A stretch of 64,000 bases of DNA from Kocuria rosea (lineage in GTDB: Bacteria; Actinomycetota; Actinomycetes; Actinomycetales; Micrococcaceae). The stretch covers positions 1-64,000 of the forward strand of contig NZ_JAMBOG010000013.1 of the NCBI RefSeq assembly GCF_023715525.1, read 5' to 3'. Of this stretch, positions 6,584 through 53,998 are shown piece after piece. The translations under genes were made by a program, and so were the position numbers. Position 1 is the stretch's first letter. Each line of letters opens with the position of its first letter. The notes below the pieces were generated by a model, which was not told where the DNA came from, did not search any database, and saw nothing but the letters and a program-made list of their open reading frames with translations.

Positions 6584-7597
6584 GTGCGCGTGGCCCGCCT
6601 GCACGGCATCGAGGACGTGCGCCTGTCCGAGGAGGACGTCCCGGTGCCCGGTCCCGGGGAGTCGCTCGTGCGCGTGGAGGCCGTCGGCCTCTGCGGCTCG
6701 GACCTGCACTGGTTCGGCCAGGGCGGCATCGGCGACGCCGTCGTCGAGCGCCCCGTCGTGCCCGGCCACGAGCTGGCGGGCACCGCGGTCACCGGTCCCC
6801 ACGAGGGGCGCCTCGTGGCGGTCGACCCGGCGATCCCGTGCGGCCGCTGTGCCCTGTGCCGGGAGGGCCACCGCAACCTGTGCCCCACGGTGCAGTTCTC
6901 GGGGCACGGGACGCTCGACGGGGGGCTGCGGCAGTTCATGGCCTGGCCCACCGACCTCCTGACGCCCCTGCCGGAGGGCATGACCGCGGCGGACGGCGCC
7001 GTGCTGGAGCCGCTCGGGGTCGCCCTGCACGCCTGGGACCTCTCGCACGCCCGGGCGGGCGCCACGGTCGCCGTGGTCGGGTGCGGGCCCCTCGGGCTCC
7101 TGCTGGTCCAGCTCGCCCTGGCCTGCGGGGCGGCGCGCGTGATCGCGGTGGAGGCACTGGAGCACCGTCGCGCCGCCGCACGGCGCTGCGGGGCCGGGAC
7201 CGTGCTCGCGCCGGACGAGGCGCGGGACCCGGCGGTCTGGCAGCGGATCGCCGGCGACGGGTGCGACGTGTCGTTCGAGGTGTGCGGCAGCGACGAGACC
7301 GTGCGCACGGCCCTGCTCGCCGCCCGGCCCGGGGCGCGCGTGCTGCTGGTCGGCATCCCCGACGACGACCGCAGCTCCTTCCCCGCAGGCCTGGCCCGCC
7401 GCAAGGGGCTCACCCTCGTGCTCGTGCGCCGCATGAAGGAGATGCACGCCCGGACGGTGGGGCTCGTGGCGTCCGGGCGCATCGACGTGCGCTCCGTCGT
7501 GTCGGCCACCCATTCCCTGGACGACGCTCCCCGGGCCTTCGCGGCGGCCGTCGCCCGGCAGGGCCTGAAGATCGTGATCGACCCCCAGCGGCCGTGA
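6584..7597 (+). CDS. zinc-binding sugar/polyol dehydrogenase (MDR family)
   Basis: A 337-residue medium-chain dehydrogenase that would oxidise a secondary alcohol of a polyol or sugar with NAD(P). The catalytic-zinc motif GLCGSDLHW and GHELAG are present, then the structural-zinc cysteines in CGRCALCREGHRNLC, and the Rossmann motif GCGPLGLL in the second half. It resembles sorbitol/L-iditol or L-threonine-type dehydrogenases. The GTG at 6584 is chosen because GAGGAGG at 6571-6577 lies six bases upstream. A longer in-frame start at 6476 would run through the operator region and gives a non-conserved N-terminus. Divergent from araB across the LacI-type operator, so it may belong to the same regulon. 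Confidence 0.88.
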   Translation: MRVARLHGIEDVRLSEEDVPVPGPGESLVRVEAVGLCGSDLHWFGQGGIGDAVVERPVVPGHELAGTAVTGPHEGRLVAVDPAIPCGRCALCREGHRNLCPTVQFSGHGTLDGGLRQFMAWPTDLLTPLPEGMTAADGAVLEPLGVALHAWDLSHARAGATVAVVGCGPLGLLLVQLALACGAARVIAVEALEHRRAAARRCGAGTVLAPDEARDPAVWQRIAGDGCDVSFEVCGSDETVRTALLAARPGARVLLVGIPDDDRSSFPAGLARRKGLTLVLVRRMKEMHARTVGLVASGRIDVRSVVSATHSLDDAPRAFAAAVARQGLKIVIDPQRP

Positions 7598-24119: not shown

Positions 24120-24552
24120 GACACACGCCACGTTGCCGGAGCGGTCCGGAGGGGCGTTGCCAAGGGGGTTGGGGGAATTTTCGCCGAATCGATACAAAGA
24201 ATGACAAATCATGAAGCATGTGGGCGGAAGCGGGGACAGCTCGGACCCCTGTGTGACGGGACCCGGCCGAATACGTCGGCGGCGGCCTCGATCAACGGCA
24301 AAAGGCTGATTGCTCGCGTCGCTGAGGAGTTTCACGTGGAACAGGTGGCGAAGCCAGCGGCAGATCAACCTCATGATGGGGATTTGACCTCCTTCCGGGC
24401 CTCACGCCGGTGCTGGAACCGGCTCCCGGAGCCGGCTCCCCTGTCCCGGGGCCGGGGGACGGGACCTTGCGGGGGAGGGCGCTAGACTGTGCGGCCACCG
24501 CACCCGGCCGCACCCCCGGTCGGTGGATCCCGCAAGCAGTGGAGGAGAACCC
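24120..24552. other. intergenic region with a parS-like site
   Basis: No protein-coding gene is supported. The left part (24170-24215) is AT-rich and may hold the PAP2 promoter. The parS-like site is at 24328-24343. The right part holds GC-rich hairpins (about 24415-24465) and a TAGACT hexamer at 24483-24488, a possible -10 for the glutaredoxin gene. Confidence 0.5.
24328..24343. promoter_or_regulatory. parS-like ParB-binding site, isolated
   Basis: AGTTTCACGTGGAACA matches the parS consensus TGTTNCACGTGAAACA at all but two positions and keeps the central CACGTG. It is the only such site seen far from parAB, about 33 kb away, and lies in a non-coding gap. Confidence 0.65.
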
Positions 24553-35959: not shown

Positions 35960-37390
35960 TCAGTCCTCCGGGGACAGGGGGAGGCGCACGACGAAGCGGC
36001 AGTGTCCGCCGGGGTCCTCGGCCGCGGCGACCGTGCCCCCGTGGGCGGCGACGATCTCCCGGCTGATCGCCAGGCCCAGCCCGGACCCGCCCGTGTCCCG
36101 CGCCCGTGAGCCGTCGAGGCGCACGAACCGCTCGAAGACCCGCTCGCGGTCCGCGGGGGCGATGGTGTCACCGTCGTTGTCCACGGTGACGACGGCGTGC
36201 TCCGCCTCCGCGGACAGCGACACCGCGATCCACGACGCCGCGTGCCGCTCCGCGTTGGAGAGCAGGTTGCGCAGGACCTGCTGCAACCGCGCGGCGTCCC
36301 CCCGGATGCGCACCGGCTCCACGTGCACGCGCAGCTCGTGCCGCGCCGCCGGCCGCATCCGGGCGACCTCCTCGGCGACGACCTCGTCGAGGTCGGTGTC
36401 GGCGACGCGCAGGCTCAGCCCCGCGTCGTCGACCTTCGCGAGGGTCAGCAGGTCCTCCACGAGCCGGCCCATCCGCCGGGCCTGCGACCTCAGGACCGGC
36501 GAGAACTCCGTCCACGCGGCGCCCGAGGGGTCCGTCGCGGCGACGTCGATCGTGGTCGTCAGGGTGGCCAGCGGGCTGCGCAGCTCGTGCGAGGCGTCCG
36601 CCACGAAGCGCCGCTGCGCGCGGTCGGAGGACTCCAGCCGGTCGAGCATGCCGTTCATCGTGGTCGCGAGCACCGCGATCTCGTCCCGGGTCGGCGGCAC
36701 GTCGACGCGCTCGTCGAGCCGCGCGGTGCCGATGCCCCGCACCTGATCGGTGATCCGCCGCACCGGGGCCAGGGAGCGGCCCACCAGGAACCACATCAGC
36801 CCGGCGCCGAGGAGGACGAGCAGGGGCCCTCCCAGCAGCAGGAAGAGGCCCACGGCGCGCAGCACGTCCTGCTGCAGGGACATGGGCACCGCCACGACCA
36901 TGACGTACGGCACGTCGTTGACGTACATGCCATATGCGACATACACGAACTCGTCCGTGCCCTCGAGCCCCCCGGAGTCGTCCCGCGCTGAGTCGTAGGA
37001 CTCGCCGGGCGCCATGCCGGGCACCGGGAGCTCCAGGGCACGCGCGGCGGGAGGGGAGGCCGCGACCACCTCTCCGTCCTCGTCCTGCAGCTGCACGACC
37101 ACGCCGGGCCTGCCGAGGACCTGGGCCAGCTCGCCGAGGTCGGCCCTCGTGTACACGGCGGGGACGCCCGTGTCGCGGCTGCCGTCGCGCGGCAGGTCGA
37201 ACTCCCGCAGGATCTCGCCCTGCCGCGAGAGGGCCTGCTCGTGGGCGGCGGTGACGGCGGACCGGCCCAGCACCTCGAGCAGGACTCCTCCGGTCACCGC
37301 CAGCACGAGCAGGATGAGCAGGGCGGCGGCCGCCGTGGTCCGCGCCCGCACGCCCCACCGTGCGATGCGGAGCGGCCGGCGGCCGGTCAC
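35960..37390 (-). CDS. sensor histidine kinase
   Basis: A 476-residue membrane kinase of the HisKA/MprB-PrrB type. One helix near residues 18-40, an extracytoplasmic sensor region to about residue 155, a second helix (FLLLGGPLLVLLGAGLMWFLV), a HAMP domain, and the H-box FVADASHELRSPLATL follow in order. The catalytic domain has the N-box LLSNAERHA, a G1-like region NDGDTIAP and the GGSGLGLAISREIV G2 box. The GTG at 37388-37390 overlaps the response regulator stop as GTGA, so the pair is co-translated. The signal is unknown. Confidence 0.94.
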   Translation of the reverse strand: MTGRRPLRIARWGVRARTTAAAALLILLVLAVTGGVLLEVLGRSAVTAAHEQALSRQGEILREFDLPRDGSRDTGVPAVYTRADLGELAQVLGRPGVVVQLQDEDGEVVAASPPAARALELPVPGMAPGESYDSARDDSGGLEGTDEFVYVAYGMYVNDVPYVMVVAVPMSLQQDVLRAVGLFLLLGGPLLVLLGAGLMWFLVGRSLAPVRRITDQVRGIGTARLDERVDVPPTRDEIAVLATTMNGMLDRLESSDRAQRRFVADASHELRSPLATLTTTIDVAATDPSGAAWTEFSPVLRSQARRMGRLVEDLLTLAKVDDAGLSLRVADTDLDEVVAEEVARMRPAARHELRVHVEPVRIRGDAARLQQVLRNLLSNAERHAASWIAVSLSAEAEHAVVTVDNDGDTIAPADRERVFERFVRLDGSRARDTGGSGLGLAISREIVAAHGGTVAAAEDPGGHCRFVVRLPLSPED

Positions 37391-38079
37391 GGCGCAGGGT
37401 CCGGGAGGTCGTCGGGCACCAGGCGGTAGCCCATCCCCCGGACCGTCTGCAGCGTGGAGAGCCCGAACGGGGCGTCGATCTTCTTGCGCAGGTAGCCCAC
37501 GTAGACCTCCACGATGTTCTCGGAGCCCTCGAAGTTGGCGTCCCACGCGTTGTCCATGATCTCGAGCTTGGAGACGACCTTCTCCTTGTTCTGGATCAGG
37601 AACTGGAGGATCACGTACTCCTTGGCGGTCAGCTCGAGCGCCTGGCCCCGCCGGGTCACCGTGCGGCGCACGGGGTCCAGCTGGAGCGACCCGGCGGTGA
37701 GGACCACCGGCCGCTCCGGCGCGCCGCGGCGGATCAGCGCCCGCAGCCGTGCCACGAGCACGAGGAAGCTGAAGGGCTTGGTGAGGTAGTCGTCGGCCCC
37801 GAGGTCGAACGCGTCGGTCTGGTCGTACTCGCCGTCCTTGGCCGTGAGCATGAGCACGGGCGTCCAGTTCTGGGCGGCGCGCATCTCCTCCAGGATCGTG
37901 TACCCGTTCCTGCCCGGGAGCATGAGGTCCAGGACGACGACGTCGTAGGGGTTCTCCCGCGCGAGCCACGCCCCGGTGATCCCGTCGTGCGCGACGTCGA
38001 CCACGAACCCCTCGTTGCGCAGGCCGCGGCGCAGCGACTCCGCGAGGTCCACCTCGTCCTCGACCAGCAGCACCCGCAC
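37387..38079 (-). CDS. OmpR-family response regulator
   Basis: A 230-residue two-domain regulator. The receiver domain has the acidic pair in LLVEDEVD, the phospho-acceptor Asp in VVVLDLMLPG, the Thr/Ala of LMLTAKDG and the Lys of DDYLTKPFSF. The winged-helix DNA-binding domain (about 135-222) contains LTAKEYVILQFLIQNKEKVVSK and TVRGMGYRL. The GTG at 38077-38079 is chosen because GGAGGG lies five bases upstream and the first strand follows at once; upstream in-frame codons run into the DnaA-box-like cluster. It leads the two-gene operon with the kinase. Confidence 0.94.
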   Translation of the reverse strand: MRVLLVEDEVDLAESLRRGLRNEGFVVDVAHDGITGAWLARENPYDVVVLDLMLPGRNGYTILEEMRAAQNWTPVLMLTAKDGEYDQTDAFDLGADDYLTKPFSFLVLVARLRALIRRGAPERPVVLTAGSLQLDPVRRTVTRRGQALELTAKEYVILQFLIQNKEKVVSKLEIMDNAWDANFEGSENIVEVYVGYLRKKIDAPFGLSTLQTVRGMGYRLVPDDLPDPAP

Positions 38080-38417
38080 CCGTGCCCTCCGTCCTCGTGT
38101 CCGTCCCGTGCCGCCCCGCCCGGCCGGCGGAGCTCCCTCCAGTGTCCCGCACGGCCGCTGAGAAGTTCTTGAGAACGCCGCCCCGCCGGGACAGGACGGC
38201 CCGGGGATCTTCTCCCCACCCGGTGCATTAAGTTGTCCACAGCTGTGGAGAACGATGTGCACGCACGGCTCTCCACAGCATTATTAACAGGTGTGGACCG
38301 CTCGGGAACAGCGTCCACACACCTGTGCACAGGTGTGGAAACACACGCGTGTAAGTTGTCGACAGCTGTGGACGACCGCTGTGGACAGTGTCCGCAGCAC
38401 AGGGGCGGGGTCCGGGC
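38080..38417. other. intergenic region with a DnaA-box-like cluster
   Basis: The 338-base gap between the response regulator start and the rhomboid stop holds no supported gene. Its central part is the cluster at 38233-38388. Nearer the regulator gene lies a small inverted repeat, GTTCTTGAGAAC at 38165-38176, which could be a binding site for the two-component system. Confidence 0.6.
38233..38388. repeat. cluster of nine DnaA-box-like 9-mers with palindromes
   Basis: Relative to TTGTCCACA there is one exact copy (38233-38241). Four copies have one mismatch: 38244-38252 (minus), 38356-38364 (plus), 38367-38375 (minus) and 38380-38388 (minus). Four have two mismatches: 38269-38277 and 38311-38319 (plus), 38292-38300 and 38334-38342 (minus). 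Some pair head to head around AGCT, and two such units (38230 and 38353) are near-copies. A perfect 20-base palindrome lies at 38318-38337, and an AT-rich patch, CATTATTAACA, at 38279-38289. Confidence 0.7.
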
Positions 38418-39212
38418 TCAGCGCCCGCGCGCGCGGCCCCGGCGCAGCGTGAGCGTGTACCCGAAGGCCACGAGAGCCCCCGTCACGAGACCGCCCAGGT
38501 GCGCCTGCCAGGCGATGCCCGGGAAGAGGAAGCCGAAGGCGAGGTTCACGCCGATGAGGACCACGATCGGGGTGATCGACTGGCCCAGGTGCCGCTGCAG
38601 CACGAAGAGGGCGCCGAAGAGGCCGAAGATCCCGCCCGAGGCGCCGACCACCAGGGTGTACGGGGACGCGAGCAGCAGCACGCCGAGGGAGCCGCCCAGG
38701 ACGGAGAGCCCGAACAGCAGCAGGAACCGGGCCCGGCCCAGGGCCGGCTCCAGCATCTGCCCGAACAGGTACAGGGTGTACATGTTCAGGAGCAGGTGCA
38801 GCGGGTTGGTCGTCGAGTGCAGGAACCCGCTCGTCAGCATCCGCCACGGCTCGGACGTGGTGGTCACGGGCGCGTAGGCGAACAACTGCAGCAGGCCCAC
38901 GCCGAGGACCAGGGCCAGCCACTGCAGCGCGTACACCACCACGTTGGCCCCGATCAGCCACCACGTGACGAGCATGGCCGAGCCGCGGGCCGCGCGCCCG
39001 CCGAGGCTCGTGCGGTAGGCGGGCCGTGACCGCGCGGCCTCCTGCACGCAGTCGACGCAGTGCACCCCCACGGCCGCCGAGCGCTGGCACTCAGGGCACA
39101 CGGGGCGCCCGCAGCGCTGGCACGAGACGTAGCTGGGCCGGTCCGGATGACGGGGGCACACGGGGACCTGCCCCCCGGTGGACGTGCCGTACTGCGGTCG
39201 CTCGCCGCTCAC
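38418..39212 (-). CDS. rhomboid family intramembrane serine protease
   Basis: A 264-residue membrane protease. The catalytic serine lies in VVGASGGIFGLFGAL and the catalytic histidine in WQAHLGGLVTGAL; six to seven helices can be drawn from about residue 78 on. The N-terminal 60 residues form a cysteine-rich zinc-binding region (VCPRHPDRPSYVSCQRCGRPVCPEC...HCVDC), common in actinobacterial rhomboids and possibly a substrate or adaptor module. Start is GTG at 39210-39212 with GAGGAG five bases upstream. Its stop faces the DnaA-box-like cluster. Confidence 0.93.
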   Translation of the reverse strand: MSGERPQYGTSTGGQVPVCPRHPDRPSYVSCQRCGRPVCPECQRSAAVGVHCVDCVQEAARSRPAYRTSLGGRAARGSAMLVTWWLIGANVVVYALQWLALVLGVGLLQLFAYAPVTTTSEPWRMLTSGFLHSTTNPLHLLLNMYTLYLFGQMLEPALGRARFLLLFGLSVLGGSLGVLLLASPYTLVVGASGGIFGLFGALFVLQRHLGQSITPIVVLIGVNLAFGFLFPGIAWQAHLGGLVTGALVAFGYTLTLRRGRARGR

Positions 39213-40110: not shown

Positions 40111-40944
40111 ATGAGCTTCAAGATGTCCAAGAGCGAGAAGACGACCGCGGCGGCCCAGGCGGCTGCGGAGAGCAAGGTCCTGGATGCCGGCGCGTGGGCG
40201 TCCAAGGAGATCGGCGAGCTGGCGCCGAAGCTGCAGCACGGCATCGAGGCCGGTGCCGCGGCGCTGGCCGGCGGCGTGGCCGCCGCGGGCCCCCGGGTGC
40301 AGGACAGCCTGGGCCGCGCCCACGAGATGTCCGACTCCGCGAAGCTGAAGGCCGCGGCCGCAGCGGCCCCGATCGCCGCGAAGGCCGTCGACCGGGCCAC
40401 CGAGAGCCGCGCGGCGATGCAGGCGAAGTACGCCGGGGCCGCGGCCCTGCTGGCCGGCAAGTTCGCGGACGCGGACACTCCGGAGCAGCTCGAGGCCATC
40501 GTCACCCGGCTGACCGGGGACAAGAAAGCGGTCGCCAACGCGAAGAAGGCCGCCGCGCGCGTCGCCAAGGACTACGCGAAGCAGCAGAAGAAGGCCGAGA
40601 GCTCGCACAAGGGCCTGCTCGTGCTGGGCCTGCTCGTGGCCGGCGGCGCGGCCGGCGTGGCCGCGTGGAAGGCCTCGCGCCCCGTCGAGGACCCCTGGAA
40701 GACCCCGGCCGCCACGTCCCCGCGCGTGACCGCGTCCCCGGTGACCCAGCAGAGCACCGTGGCCGCCGGCACCGGCGTGCAGGTCGACGACGTCGAGGAC
40801 GCCACCACCCCGGCCGGCCAGCCCGGCGGCGTGTCGGGGGCGGCCTCCGAGGTCAAGGACAATGCCAAGAGCATCGGCGAGGACGCCAAGACCACGATCC
40901 ACGAGGTCAAGGAGCAGATCCAGGGCAAGAAGGACGAGGCCTGA
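40111..40944 (+). CDS. alanine/lysine-rich membrane-anchored protein, unknown
   Basis: A 277-residue protein of low complexity. The first 165 residues are alanine- and lysine-rich and almost certainly helical (repeated AAAA, KAAARVAKDYAKQQKKAE). One clear membrane helix follows at about 170-188 (GLLVLGLLVAGGAAGVAAW), then a proline/threonine-rich stretch and a charged tail rich in K and D. I do not recognise the family. The layout, a long helical cytosolic part with a single anchor, suggests a structural or scaffold protein. AGAAGGGA lies nine bases before the ATG. It ends at a bidirectional terminator shared with the damaged Nramp gene. Confidence 0.7.
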   Translation: MSFKMSKSEKTTAAAQAAAESKVLDAGAWASKEIGELAPKLQHGIEAGAAALAGGVAAAGPRVQDSLGRAHEMSDSAKLKAAAAAAPIAAKAVDRATESRAAMQAKYAGAAALLAGKFADADTPEQLEAIVTRLTGDKKAVANAKKAAARVAKDYAKQQKKAESSHKGLLVLGLLVAGGAAGVAAWKASRPVEDPWKTPAATSPRVTASPVTQQSTVAAGTGVQVDDVEDATTPAGQPGGVSGAASEVKDNAKSIGEDAKTTIHEVKEQIQGKKDEA

Positions 40945-40970
40945 TCCGGCGCTGAGCCCGGAGGACCTCG

Positions 40971-41003
40971 AAGGCCCCGCCCCCCTTGTGGGGGCGGGGC
41001 CTT
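40971..41003. terminator. bidirectional terminator
   Basis: A perfect 14-base-pair stem (40971-40984 with 40990-41003) with a 5-base loop lies between the convergent hypothetical and Nramp genes. It serves both if the Nramp gene ends at 41026 in its original frame. Confidence 0.78.
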
Positions 41004-41025
41004 CCGCATGGGTCCGGTCGGGTGC

Positions 41026-41915
41026 TCAGCCCTGGGGCGCGGTGAGCACGTCCTGGAGGCTGTCCCCTCCTGGTAGATGCCCCGCGCGGTGAACAGCACC
41101 ACGCACACGGCGAGCGCCACGTTGGTGAACACGCCGTTGCGCCGGCGCTCGGGGGTGCGCCGGGTGTTGAGCAGCCACAGCAGGGTGAAGGCGAGGAAGG
41201 GCATGAACAGCGCCCCGAGCACTCCGTAGAGGAGGATGAGGAACACCGGCTTGCCGAGGGCCAGCAGCGCCATGGGCGGGAAGGTGAGCCAGACCAGGTA
41301 GAACTTGAAGTACCTGCCGCCGGTGAGGGTGTCGGGGTGGCCGCTGGGCTTGCTGCGGATGTTGCCCCAGAAGTCGGCGAACAGCAGGGAGACCCCGGAC
41401 CACACGCCCACCACGGACGAGAACGACGCCGCCCAGAAGCCGACGAGGAAGACGGGGCCGACGACGTCGCCGTAGCGCTCCTGGAGGACGTCGGCCAGGT
41501 CGAGCAGGCCCTCGTCGCCGGCGCTGATGGCGTAGCCGGCCGAGTAGAGGACCTCGACGCCGATGATGAGCATGGCGATCACGAAGATGCCGGTCACCGC
41601 GTAGACGGTCGTCCACCTCCCGAGCGAGCGCCAGCCCTCGAAGATGGTGCGCCCGGTGGACAGGGAGTACCGGCCGGCGCCCTCCACGAGGACGATCTTG
41701 AGGACGGTCCCGAGCACCACGGCCCACAGCGGGCCGTGGCCGAAGCGGGAGCCGGCGATCAGGGTGGCCACGAGGTCCGCGGCGCCCACGCCCGTGGCCG
41801 CGACGACCAGTCCGGGGCCCACGATCTTCCAGCCGCTGACCTTCTCGAGGGGTTCGTCCGGGTCGATGCCCGGCGCGGGGGCGAGCGCCTTCATGGCGTG
41901 GTCGTCCTGCTGCAT
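41026..41915 (-). pseudogene. Nramp-like divalent metal transporter, damaged
   Basis: The reading frame codes for an Nramp-related transporter (GWKIVGPGLVVAATGVGAADLVATLIAGS, ALLALGKPVFLILLYGVLGALFMPF, TLLWLLNTRRTP) of the group that lacks the DPGN metal motif. Two lesions are seen. First, GWRSLGRWTT runs straight into VYAVTGIFVIAMLIIG, where full-length relatives, as I recall them, have roughly 110-120 more residues (middle helices), so an internal in-frame deletion is likely. Second, at the run of G near 41070 one base appears lost: the open frame leaves the expected end and runs through the terminator, while the other frame gives a natural end, SLQDVLTAPQG, with a stop at 41026. Transport is unlikely. 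ATG 41913-41915 assumed; 41892-41894 possible. Confidence 0.62.
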
Positions 41916-41919
41916 GCCT

Positions 41920-41959
41920 CTCCAGGCCGTCCCGGCCCCCGGCCCGGGACGGCCTGGAG
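41920..41959 (-). promoter_or_regulatory. leader hairpin overlapping the Nramp ribosome site
   Basis: A perfect 16-base-pair stem (41920-41935 with 41944-41959) with an 8-base loop ends four bases before the ATG. The GGAG that would bind the ribosome is inside the stem nearest the start codon, so translation may be held down unless the hairpin opens. Confidence 0.55.
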
Positions 41960-41972
41960 GCGCTGCGACCAG

Positions 41973-41988
41973 TGTGCCACGGGTCACA
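41973..41988. promoter_or_regulatory. Crp/GlxR-like site upstream of the Nramp gene
   Basis: TGTGCCACGGGTCACA matches TGTGA-N6-TCACA with a single mismatch (C for A in the left half). It lies about 60 bases before the Nramp start, a usual place for a cAMP-receptor-type regulator. Confidence 0.45.
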
Positions 41989-51324: not shown

Positions 51325-51964
51325 GAGAGGTTGCTGCCTTTCAGTCTGATCAGGGGCGGCGGGGCCCCCGTCCGGGTCCCGCTTCCCGCAGGAAGAGGGC
51401 TCCGGGCGCCGCAGGGCGCCGCGGAGCAGGACGTGGCTCGCCGTGTGCATCGTATCCATGCGCTCCGAGCGCTGGCTATTCCGCCACGGAGGGCGCAGCC
51501 CGGGGGAGTAGCCGGTCGGGGACGGGTCTCGTCGCGGGGCGGAACCACAGGATTCTTGTTCTTTGGCCGGGATCTCTTTAAGGATGGGAGTGTTAATAAC
51601 CGCTGTGGAATCTGTGGATAAGTGCCTCTCGGCCAGGTTCCGTCCGGGCCGGTCCTGTTGACTTCTTGTGATTCGCGGTCCACCGAAACCGGTCCGGCCG
51701 GTGGACGGGACCCGCGCCGTTCTGCGGGTTCCACAGGCGAGGGCCCGGTTGTACCGAGCTTGTCCACCGATGGAGCCCCGATCTCCACAATCTTGTCCAC
51801 AGGTGTGGGTTGCGGTCTGTGCACAGCCGCTCCACAGGCGAGGAATTCCTGTGCACGGACGGGTCGTGCGGCCCGTGACGGCGCGGATCCGGCCTGTGGA
51901 CGAACGACAGGAAAGGGGTCCGCCGGAGCACCGGCGGACCCCTGGGGGCAGGAAGGAGGGCCGG
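51325..51964. other. probable chromosomal origin, oriC (dnaA-dnaN gap)
   Basis: The 640-base non-coding gap holds two exact DnaA boxes, TGTGGATAA (51613-51621, reverse of TTATCCACA) and TTGTCCACA (51793-51801). One-mismatch forms are at 51760-51768 and 51895-51903 (minus). Looser forms are at 51604-51612, 51727-51735, 51781-51789, 51804-51812 and 51828-51836. The most AT-rich stretch, about 51550-51600 ending GTGTTAATAAC, lies at the dnaN side and is the candidate unwinding element. Placement between dnaA and dnaN is standard for the phylum. Confidence 0.8.
51914..51943 (-). terminator. terminator hairpin after dnaA
   Basis: A perfect 13-base-pair stem (51914-51926 with 51931-51943) and 4-base loop lie 21 bases beyond the dnaA stop and would shield the origin from dnaA transcription. 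Confidence 0.72.
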
Positions 51965-53566
51965 TCAGCCCTCGCGCTGCTGCTGCTTGATCCGGTTCGT
52001 CAGCTCGGTCACCTGGTTGAAGATCTGCCGGCGCTCGGCCATGAGGGTGCGGATCTTGCGGTCCGCGTGCATGACCGTGGTGTGGTCCCGCCCGCCCAGC
52101 TCCTGGCCGATCTTCGGCAGGGACATGTCGGTCAGCTCCCGCAGCAGGTACATGGCGATCTGCCGCGCGGTGACCAGGGTCCGGGTGCGCGACTTGCTCT
52201 TGAGCTCCTCGAGGGTGATGTCGAAGTAGACCGCCGTCTGGGCCAGGATCGAGGCGGCCGTGATCTCCTGCGCGCCGTCGTCGGTGATGAGGTCCTTGAG
52301 CACCAGCTCGGCCAGGGGCAGGTCCACGGCCTGCTTGTTGAGGGACGCGAAGGCGGTGACGCGGATCAGCGCCCCCTCGAGCTCGCGGATGTTGGTGGAG
52401 ATGTGGGAGGCGATGTACTCGAGGACGTCGTCGGGGGCGTCCATGCCGTCGCTGACCGCCTTCTTGCGCAGGATCGCGATGCGGGTCTCGAGCTCGGGCG
52501 GCTGCACGTCCGTGATCAGGCCCCACTCGAAGCGCGAGCGCATCCGCTCCGCGAAGCCGGTCAGCTGCTTGGGCGGCATGTCCGAGGTGATCACGATCTG
52601 CTTCTCGTGGTTGTGCAGCGCGTTGAAGGTGTGGAAGAACTCCTCCTGCGTGTGCTCCTTGCCGGCGAGGAACTGGATGTCGTCGATCAGCAGCATGTCC
52701 ACGTTGCGGTAGATCTCCTTGAAGGAGGACCCCTCGTCGTCGCGGATGGAGTTGATGAAGTCGTTCGTGAACTCCTCCGAGTTCACGTAGCGCACCCGCA
52801 CCTGGGGGTAGAGGCGCTTGGCGTAGTGGCCGATCGCGTGCAGCAGGTGCGTCTTGCCCAGCCCGGACTCCCCGTAGATGAACAGCGGGTTGTACGCCTT
52901 GGCGGGCGTCTCTGCGACGGCGAACGCCGCCGCGTGCGCGAAGCGGTTGGACTGCCCGATCACGAAGGAGTCGAACACGTACTTCGGGTTCAGCCGCGCG
53001 GAGCTGTCCCACTCCCCCACCACGGCGGGTGCGGTGCCGGTGTCCCGGGCGGGGCGCCGGGGCGGGGCGGCCTGCGGGTCGCGCGGCGGCGGCAGCGTCC
53101 GGGTGCCCACGCCGGCCTCCCGCGCCGGAACCGGCTGGGCGGGGAACGACATCGCCGGCTGGTCCGACCACGAGGGGTCGGAGGACCGGGCGGGGTCGGC
53201 GGAGGTCGGCTCGTCAGTGCGGCCGCGCTCGGCCTCGAGCTCGTCGATCGGCGGCAGCGAGGGCGCGGGGGTCTGCTCCGGCGCCGGGGCGGCCTCGAGG
53301 TCGGCGTCGACGACGAACGCCACCAGGGTCTCGGGGCTGAAGGCCCGTCCCACGGCGGAGCGCAGCACGGAGGCCATCTGGTTCTGGAAGAACTCGCGGG
53401 TCAGCTCGTTGGGCACGGCCACGAGCAGGGTGGTCCCGATCAGCCCCTGGGGCTGGGCCAGGGAGATGAACCCCCGGTAGCGGCCGGTGGTCATCGGATC
53501 CTCGTACATGTACTGCACGCACTCGGCCCACTGCGCGCTGAGCGCCTGATTGTCCTGCGTGCCCAC
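51965..53566 (-). CDS. dnaA: chromosomal replication initiator DnaA
   Basis: A 533-residue initiator. Domain I (about 1-90) is followed by a long proline-rich domain II (about 95-185), then the AAA+ domain with Walker [13 protein letters not shown], Walker [10 protein letters not shown] and sensor regions, and the DNA-binding domain IV with [15 protein letters not shown]. The GTG at 53564-53566 is preferred because GCAGGAG lies five bases upstream; ATG 53582-53584 would add six residues without a ribosome site. It reads leftward away from rpmH. Several DnaA boxes lie in both flanking gaps, consistent with autoregulation and initiation. Confidence 0.98.
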
Positions 53567-53707
53567 GCGTACTCCTGCTGTCATGTCGTCGAGTTGTCGT
53601 CGAGGTTCCGAGGCGGTGGACGGGTCGTCCGGGCCCGGGATGGGAAGGCTTGTCCACAGCGTTGTTCACAACGGTGGAAAAGCTGTCGGGGGCCAGCCGC
53701 GAGAGCC

Positions 53708-53735
53708 AGCCTAGAACATGCGTCCGGCCTGTTCA
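53708..53735 (-). promoter_or_regulatory. possible dnaA promoter
   Basis: On the minus strand TGAACA (53730-53735) and TAGGCT (53708-53713) are 16 bases apart. Transcription would start near 53701 and give a leader of about 135 bases containing two DnaA boxes. Confidence 0.5.
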
Positions 53736-53998
53736 TAGCGGCTCCGTTGGCGCCCCGGGAACTACATCCTTGTAGTTCGGGCCCGGATCCGCGCCGTTCC
53801 GCGGGTCTCGGCGGGCAGGTTTTCCACAGGATGTGACCAAGATCCGTGCACACCTGTGGGTAGGATGTGGACTGCACACGTTCCCCGCCCGCTCCGGCCG
53901 GTCGTCGTTCCGGTCCCGGTGCTCCGCCGCCCGCCCGGGGCCACCGTCCCGCGGGCGTCCCGTCCTCCGTCCGGAGCAGGCTCCGGCCCGCCCCGGAT

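Follow-up and report, generated by a model that had tools for sequence, protein, structure and literature searches.

Between a rhomboid gene and a response-regulator gene of Kocuria rosea lies an intergenic gap that is crowded with matches to the DnaA box. The window, by which we mean the whole 64-kb stretch of DNA that was analysed, contains the following features, where a box triplet consists of two tandem boxes and one box facing them:

38418 to 39212, minus strand: rhomboid gene (PF01694), the constant neighbour of the cluster
38080 to 38417, no strand: intergenic gap with the cluster, from the rhomboid 3' end to the response-regulator 5' end; the response-regulator start, a GTG at 38079, is inferred from the start of the domain
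37387 to 38079, minus strand: OmpR-type response regulator (PF00072 and PF00486), the variable neighbour
38356 to 38388, minus strand: DnaA-box triplet T1, tandem 13 / convergent 11, CTGTCCACA-N4-TCGTCCACA-N2-TGTCGACAA (triplet scan)
38265 to 38355, no strand: spacer between T1 and T2 with weaker boxes (triplet scan)
38233 to 38264, minus strand: DnaA-box triplet T2, tandem 12 / convergent 11, with the exact box TTGTCCACA at 38233 and a head-to-head pair around GC (box and triplet scans)
38281 to 38289, plus strand: TTATTAACA, an AT-rich patch and two-mismatch DnaA box (box scan, alignment)
38318 to 38337, no strand: 20-bp palindrome CACACCTGTGCACAGGTGTG, noted earlier (sequence)
38210 to 38227, plus strand: flank TTCTCCCCACCCGGTGCA, similar in several Kocuria relatives (alignment)
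51460 to 51964, no strand: dnaN-dnaA gap, the presumed oriC, given as context outside the element (box scan; by analogy with the K. rhizophila oriC in the available part of PMC12500396)

The 200 bp from position 38201 hold one exact DnaA box, four matches with one mismatch and ten with two, relative to TTGTCCACA/TTATCCACA and with overlapping palindromic matches each counted singly. The nine boxes listed in an earlier note on this DNA (one exact, four with one mismatch, four with two) are a subset of these 15. The stretch 38200–38400 is the densest in DnaA boxes in the whole window, with a score of 17.0; the next-best stretches, at 53641 in the gap upstream of dnaA and at 51741 in the dnaA-dnaN gap, score 9.5 each, and the claim that the cluster is denser than the dnaA-dnaN gap thus holds by this measure. 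In 1000 dinucleotide shuffles of the cluster's 200 bp, the maximum was three boxes with at most one mismatch (five observed) and seven with at most two (15 observed). The same note was right about the two neighbouring genes, the 20-base palindrome and the distance of about 13 kb to dnaA, the dnaA ORF (51965–53584) starting 13.6 kb from the cluster. The AT-rich patch that it described does exist, but amounts to about TTATTAA only (38281–38287). Elsewhere in the window, DnaA boxes also lie between rpmH and dnaA (53641–53850), where they probably serve dnaA autoregulation, and an ORF on the minus strand at 40572–41987 gives a partial Nramp match only (profile positions 203–348 of 357), so that it may be a broken or misframed gene.

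The cluster is not peculiar to this genome. Its closest named matches come from Kocuria sp. and K. polaris, and the names Kocuria for the 27 genus genomes and Micrococcaceae for the family rest on this match. The rhomboid gene is present in all 27 Kocuria genomes, and at least four boxes with at most one mismatch follow within 500 bp of its 3' end in every one of them; the cluster DNA itself could be matched at the sequence level in 17 of the 27, the own genome included. Across the Micrococcaceae the rhomboid gene was found in 120 of 120 genomes and 32 of 32 genera. (The matches G018:C1:92001-92606 and G011:C11:289039-289617 each carry one in-frame TGA.) For the family comparison we took 40 loci from the 32 genera and left out G054, whose contig ends at the rhomboid gene, which gives 39 counted genomes from 31 genera. 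At least three boxes per 200 bp occur within 1.5 kb after the rhomboid gene in 38 of these 39, the exception being G135 with one good box only; in a control interval 0.1–10 kb before the rhomboid end, the same density is reached in a single genome of the 39. The genomes sampled are phylogenetically non-independent. Lack of conservation in close relatives had been named in the earlier note as grounds for giving up its reading, and the cluster passes that trial. Its recurrence beside the same gene in so many relatives suggests an element retained over a long time, probably as a sponge or switch in the timing of chromosome copying.

The identity of the motif does not depend on our choice of the DnaA box as a query. 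When all 9-mers were counted without any prior, the top 9-mer after the rhomboid gene was TGTGGATAA, the reverse complement of TTATCCACA, occurring in 29 of 31 genera, while the best 9-mer in 50 shuffled sets reached at most seven. An operator array of some non-DnaA factor with a similar site, which was among the readings offered at the outset, is consequently disfavoured: the unbiased consensus is exactly TTATCCACA, and the box motif is common to the cluster and the region after dnaA. Some of the boxes are degenerate and palindromic, as such an array might have them, and still we find this explanation hardly credible.

The boxes are arranged in a recurrent geometry. T1 is found in 26 of 27 Kocuria genomes (score at least 22 of 27) and T2 in 27 of 27, both triplets pointing in the same direction; the distance between their starts is 123–124 bp in 25 of 26 genomes and 135 bp in one (G005). 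Among the pair distances at the cluster, tandem 13 occurs in 23 of 31 genera, convergent 11 in 16 and convergent 10 in 11, and the gaps downstream of dnaA prefer tandem 12 (8 of 17). A geometry-free scan over 13 x 13 spacings in two arrangements, 338 triplet geometries in all, was won by tandem 13 / convergent 10, present in 20 of 31 family genera, with the runner-up at nine. At class loci outside the order, the mirrored 13/10 geometry appeared in 8 of 25 and every other geometry in at most two. All 27 Kocuria genomes, and 38 of the 39 in the family set, attain a best-triplet score of at least 23 of 27, with controls at 0 of 27 and 0 of 39; elsewhere this score is reached in 9 of 27 loci from other families of the order, 10 of 25 from the class and 7 of 20 regions downstream of dnaA. 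The 1820 shuffles gave a maximum of 20. A chance origin of the cluster is ruled out, since shuffles never reach the observed box counts or triplet scores. Triplets of the 12/11 kind occur after dnaA too, in mirrored form in 6 of 20 dnaA-downstream regions.

In several Micrococcaceae genera the tandem-plus-convergent array is present twice in a row after the rhomboid gene (loci such as L121, L129, L136 and L110). Measured from T1 to the convergent pair, the distances show a best period of 11.4 bp (R 0.52, matched by 0.5% of nulls with uniform distances; R 0.38 at 10.5 bp). With 30 genus-distance values, tested after the distances had been seen, helical phasing of this distance is suggestive only.

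How far does the geometry extend? We searched for the strict pattern TTRTCCACA-N4-TTRTCCACA-N-TGTGGAYAA with at most three mismatches, and took the reversed pattern as a control. Within the family the pattern occurs 21 times, spread over 15 of 20 genomes. Of these sites 18 follow the rhomboid gene at no more than 1.5 kb, and the rest are 2.7, about 10 and 55 kb off; the control pattern has no site in the same 20 genomes. In a class-wide sample, 89 of 296 genomes carry the strict triplet, 88 of them among the 269 outside the order, and the control pattern has 0 sites in the 296; the class counts are not independent, because many genomes share a genus. The strict triplet is absent from the same-order genomes outside the family (0 of 24), from two family members of genus g9 within the class sample and from the large-genome genus g82 of family f37 (0 of 27). 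The strict 13/10 geometry is therefore patchy across the sample. Outside the family, simple box counts gave a weak and patchy picture until the triplet geometry was applied.

Where the strict triplet occurs outside the order, it mostly keeps its place near the same gene. The comparison took in 67 of the 88 triplet-bearing genomes, three of which lack a rhomboid match. Among the 64 with both features, the triplet lies downstream of the rhomboid gene within 1.5 kb in 44 and within 10 kb in 12 more, 56 in all, and within 10 kb upstream in none of the 64; in the remaining eight, the two features are far apart in five and on different contigs in three, where the rhomboid gene sits at the edge of its own. 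The distance to dnaA was computed for 17 of 20 genomes, G289, G411 and G312 being left out for wrap-round: 16 triplets follow dnaA at 10–71 kb and one precedes it by 83 kb, all within 84 kb.

The own genome (G000) has a strict 13/10 match only at C6:80020-80051 (L051, about 7021-7052), the window cluster being spaced 13/11 and 12/11 instead. Another Kocuria genome, G014, has a strict 13/10 triplet at G014:C1:69145-69176, 55 kb beyond its rhomboid cluster. A second box group lies about 4 kb from the off-cluster strict triplet in both genomes.

Is the cluster a promoter region of the gene that follows it? A DnaA-controlled promoter for the two-component system had been proposed in the earlier note, and in the window the response regulator does start 120–320 bp downstream of the cluster. 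DnaA is, moreover, a known transcription factor. The gene and the cluster are, however, not kept together in relatives: no more than 8 of the 27 Kocuria genomes have the response regulator next to the cluster, so the cluster is not mainly that gene's promoter. Different gene families stand downstream elsewhere, ten of the next genes in the family being assigned by profile to CrgA (two), GNAT (two), TrkH, MFS, an FMN oxidoreductase, a globin/FAD protein and an ArsR/MarR-type regulator, with one lacking a match. In 20 of 39 family genomes the next called gene converges with the rhomboid gene from the opposite strand, in 18 it shares the strand of the rhomboid gene, and in one none is called. A search of 38050–38450 found no sigma-70-like promoter, and shuffles gave none either; this is a weak test in this phylum. 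A main role as response-regulator promoter was rejected on the swap of neighbours and the convergent next genes, and in its wider form, as a promoter under DnaA control or a site coupled to the transcription of genes nearby, we hold the explanation to be very unlikely. The comparisons made here establish the motif and its geometry, the conservation and location of the cluster, and the fact that it does not depend on the gene next to it.

Another possibility is that the cluster forms a true or auxiliary replication origin, or one half of a bipartite one. It has the DnaA-box array expected of an oriC and the highest box density of the window, and in 8 of the 13 genomes compared, the window included, raw cumulative GC skew reaches its minimum no more than 3.5 kb from the end of the rhomboid gene. 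This last result would fit the relocated or auxiliary origin that the earlier note had suggested, but in the other five genomes the minimum lies 5.5–32 kb away. Among ten normally oriented genomes, the GC3 skew of the genes between dnaA and the rhomboid gene is nearer the lagging-side value in seven, nearer the leading-side value in two and uninterpretable in one, although the highly expressed gyr and dnaN genes may bias GC3; the TA3 skew of the same interval is nearer the leading-side value in five of ten, nearer the lagging in one and uninformative in four. In G027, where dnaA is displaced, the GC3 of plus-strand genes exceeds that of minus-strand genes to either side of the cluster, the excess being much larger beyond it. 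Skew had been put forward as a way to place the replication switch at 38 kb or at 51–54 kb; the raw, GC3, TA3 and displaced-dnaA results disagree, each contradicting another.

Other features of an origin stay with dnaA. With the window's dnaA ORF as query, a dnaA gene is found in 20 of 20 genomes, and the region after it keeps 2–9 boxes in all 20. The AT-rich stretch expected for unwinding is weaker at the cluster: the most AT-rich 40 bp near it fall short of those after dnaA in 14 of 15 genomes and equal them in one, the window having 0.50 at the cluster versus 0.60. The main parS group adjoins dnaA on the flank that faces away from the cluster in the genomes with listed places (10 of 16), G027 with its cluster 108 kb off among them. 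In the window, parS-like sites were seen at 24329, 57876, 59139 and 59619. The first of these stands alone, 14 kb past the cluster, and a comparable isolated parS lies 12 kb past the cluster in each of G013 and G014; lone sites at 12–14 kb thus make parS bracket dnaA together with the cluster in these three Kocuria genomes, which would suit an origin that includes the cluster.

The position of dnaA itself varies. The cluster lies 13–17 kb from dnaA/oriC in most Micrococcaceae examined, but the distance grows to about 62 kb in G125, 108 kb in G027 and, assuming a circular contig, 329 kb in G115, the cluster staying with the rhomboid gene each time. In G128 the dnaA-gyrA block is inverted (C1:1000378-1015032), and there too the cluster is still with the rhomboid gene. 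Since dnaA can be 62–329 kb off while the cluster stays, the cluster is probably not the origin, and we regard an origin function of any of the three kinds as unlikely.

We consider it probable, if by no means certain, that the cluster regulates DnaA in cis as an origin-linked element, being neither an origin nor primarily a promoter. Judged from sequence, a datA-like DnaA site fits best among the four readings first offered, given the DnaA-box motif returned by the unbiased count, the family-wide locus and the class-wide strict triplet. The cluster fits the description of a DnaA-box cluster outside oriC, being denser than chance and conserved in place, with DnaA binding predicted.

How might such an element act? 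The binding of DnaA, the timing, and the sign and mechanism of the effect are what we infer here. DnaA would bind the two pre-set triplets, each a tandem pair with an opposed head-to-head box. The site lies near dnaA and oriC and would be duplicated very soon after initiation; copied early by virtue of this proximity, it could take up DnaA just after initiation. In the most likely form of the mechanism, the duplicated site would hold DnaA, inactivate it, or both, so that the origin does not refire, a role that has been ascribed to datA and to the Bacillus and Streptomyces clusters. A DARS-like nucleotide exchange would be the alternative biochemical outcome. The conserved box geometry suggests a defined contact between DnaA molecules, beyond passive titration alone.

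A broader hypothesis, which we put forward tentatively and hold to be less likely than not, makes the element a DnaA control element of the Actinomycetes as a class: a near-single-copy, geometrically fixed triplet beside the rhomboid gene near the origin, doubled in the Micrococcaceae into two helically phased triplets, which would switch the nucleotide state of DnaA (by inactivation or reactivation) through a head-to-head contact analogous to the E. coli DARS core and spaced unlike it.

Prevention of double origin firing is much less understood in Actinomycetes than in E. coli. A conserved putative DnaA locus with an exact geometry and a fixed gene neighbour would make the question testable through one short site, and would mean that boxes placed head to head, as in the DARS core, are found beyond the proteobacteria as well. 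We found no description of a rhomboid-linked DnaA-box locus in the open-access PMC literature as far as its text was available. In K. rhizophila, oriC has been placed in silico at dnaA-dnaN, with DnaA-box arrays; such arrays are common to both, the locus is different, and the rhomboid cluster goes unmentioned in the accessible portion of that paper (PMC12500396).

Among known systems, DnaA-box clusters of Bacillus subtilis and Streptomyces coelicolor repress untimely initiation and are described, in the available text of PMC5742627, as datA analogues; from that description they resemble the present cluster in grouping DnaA boxes away from oriC in a Gram-positive host. In E. coli, DnaA has a preference for boxes paired at 2–3 bp, according to the part of PMC11317965 available; the tandem boxes of T2 are 3 bp apart, whereas those of T1 are separated by 4 bp, and the present triplets have a third, opposed box besides. 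The E. coli datA is likewise a cluster of DnaA boxes outside oriC, and its stretch between glyY and queG in K-12 has, as measured here, one tandem and one convergent pair of boxes, each with a spacing of 12. The present candidate element differs from it in lying nearer the origin and having fixed triplets.

By the same measurement, the cores of E. coli K-12 DARS1 (at bioD-uvrB) and DARS2 (upstream of mutH) each consist of two tandem boxes 12 apart and an opposed box 14 further. The present triplets share this topology of two tandem boxes and one opposed, and head-to-head DnaA on boxes I and II, through which DARS works, is given as the hallmark of DARS in the text seen of PMC8682772 and PMC5742627. 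By the same route, ADP-DnaA dimers on the head-to-head boxes of the cluster would release ADP and restore the capacity for initiation. The spacing, however, is 13/10, 13/11 or 12/11 and not the 12/14 of both E. coli cores, a geometry that falls outside the top 15 of our triplet scan. The cluster lies near dnaA, moreover, whereas the E. coli DARS sites lie far from oriC, and a DARS-like reactivation appears to us quite improbable. With the topology shared and the spacing not, the element may work like datA or like DARS and is filed as neither; our best reading is that of a candidate DnaA regulatory site that resembles both and has a spacing of its own.
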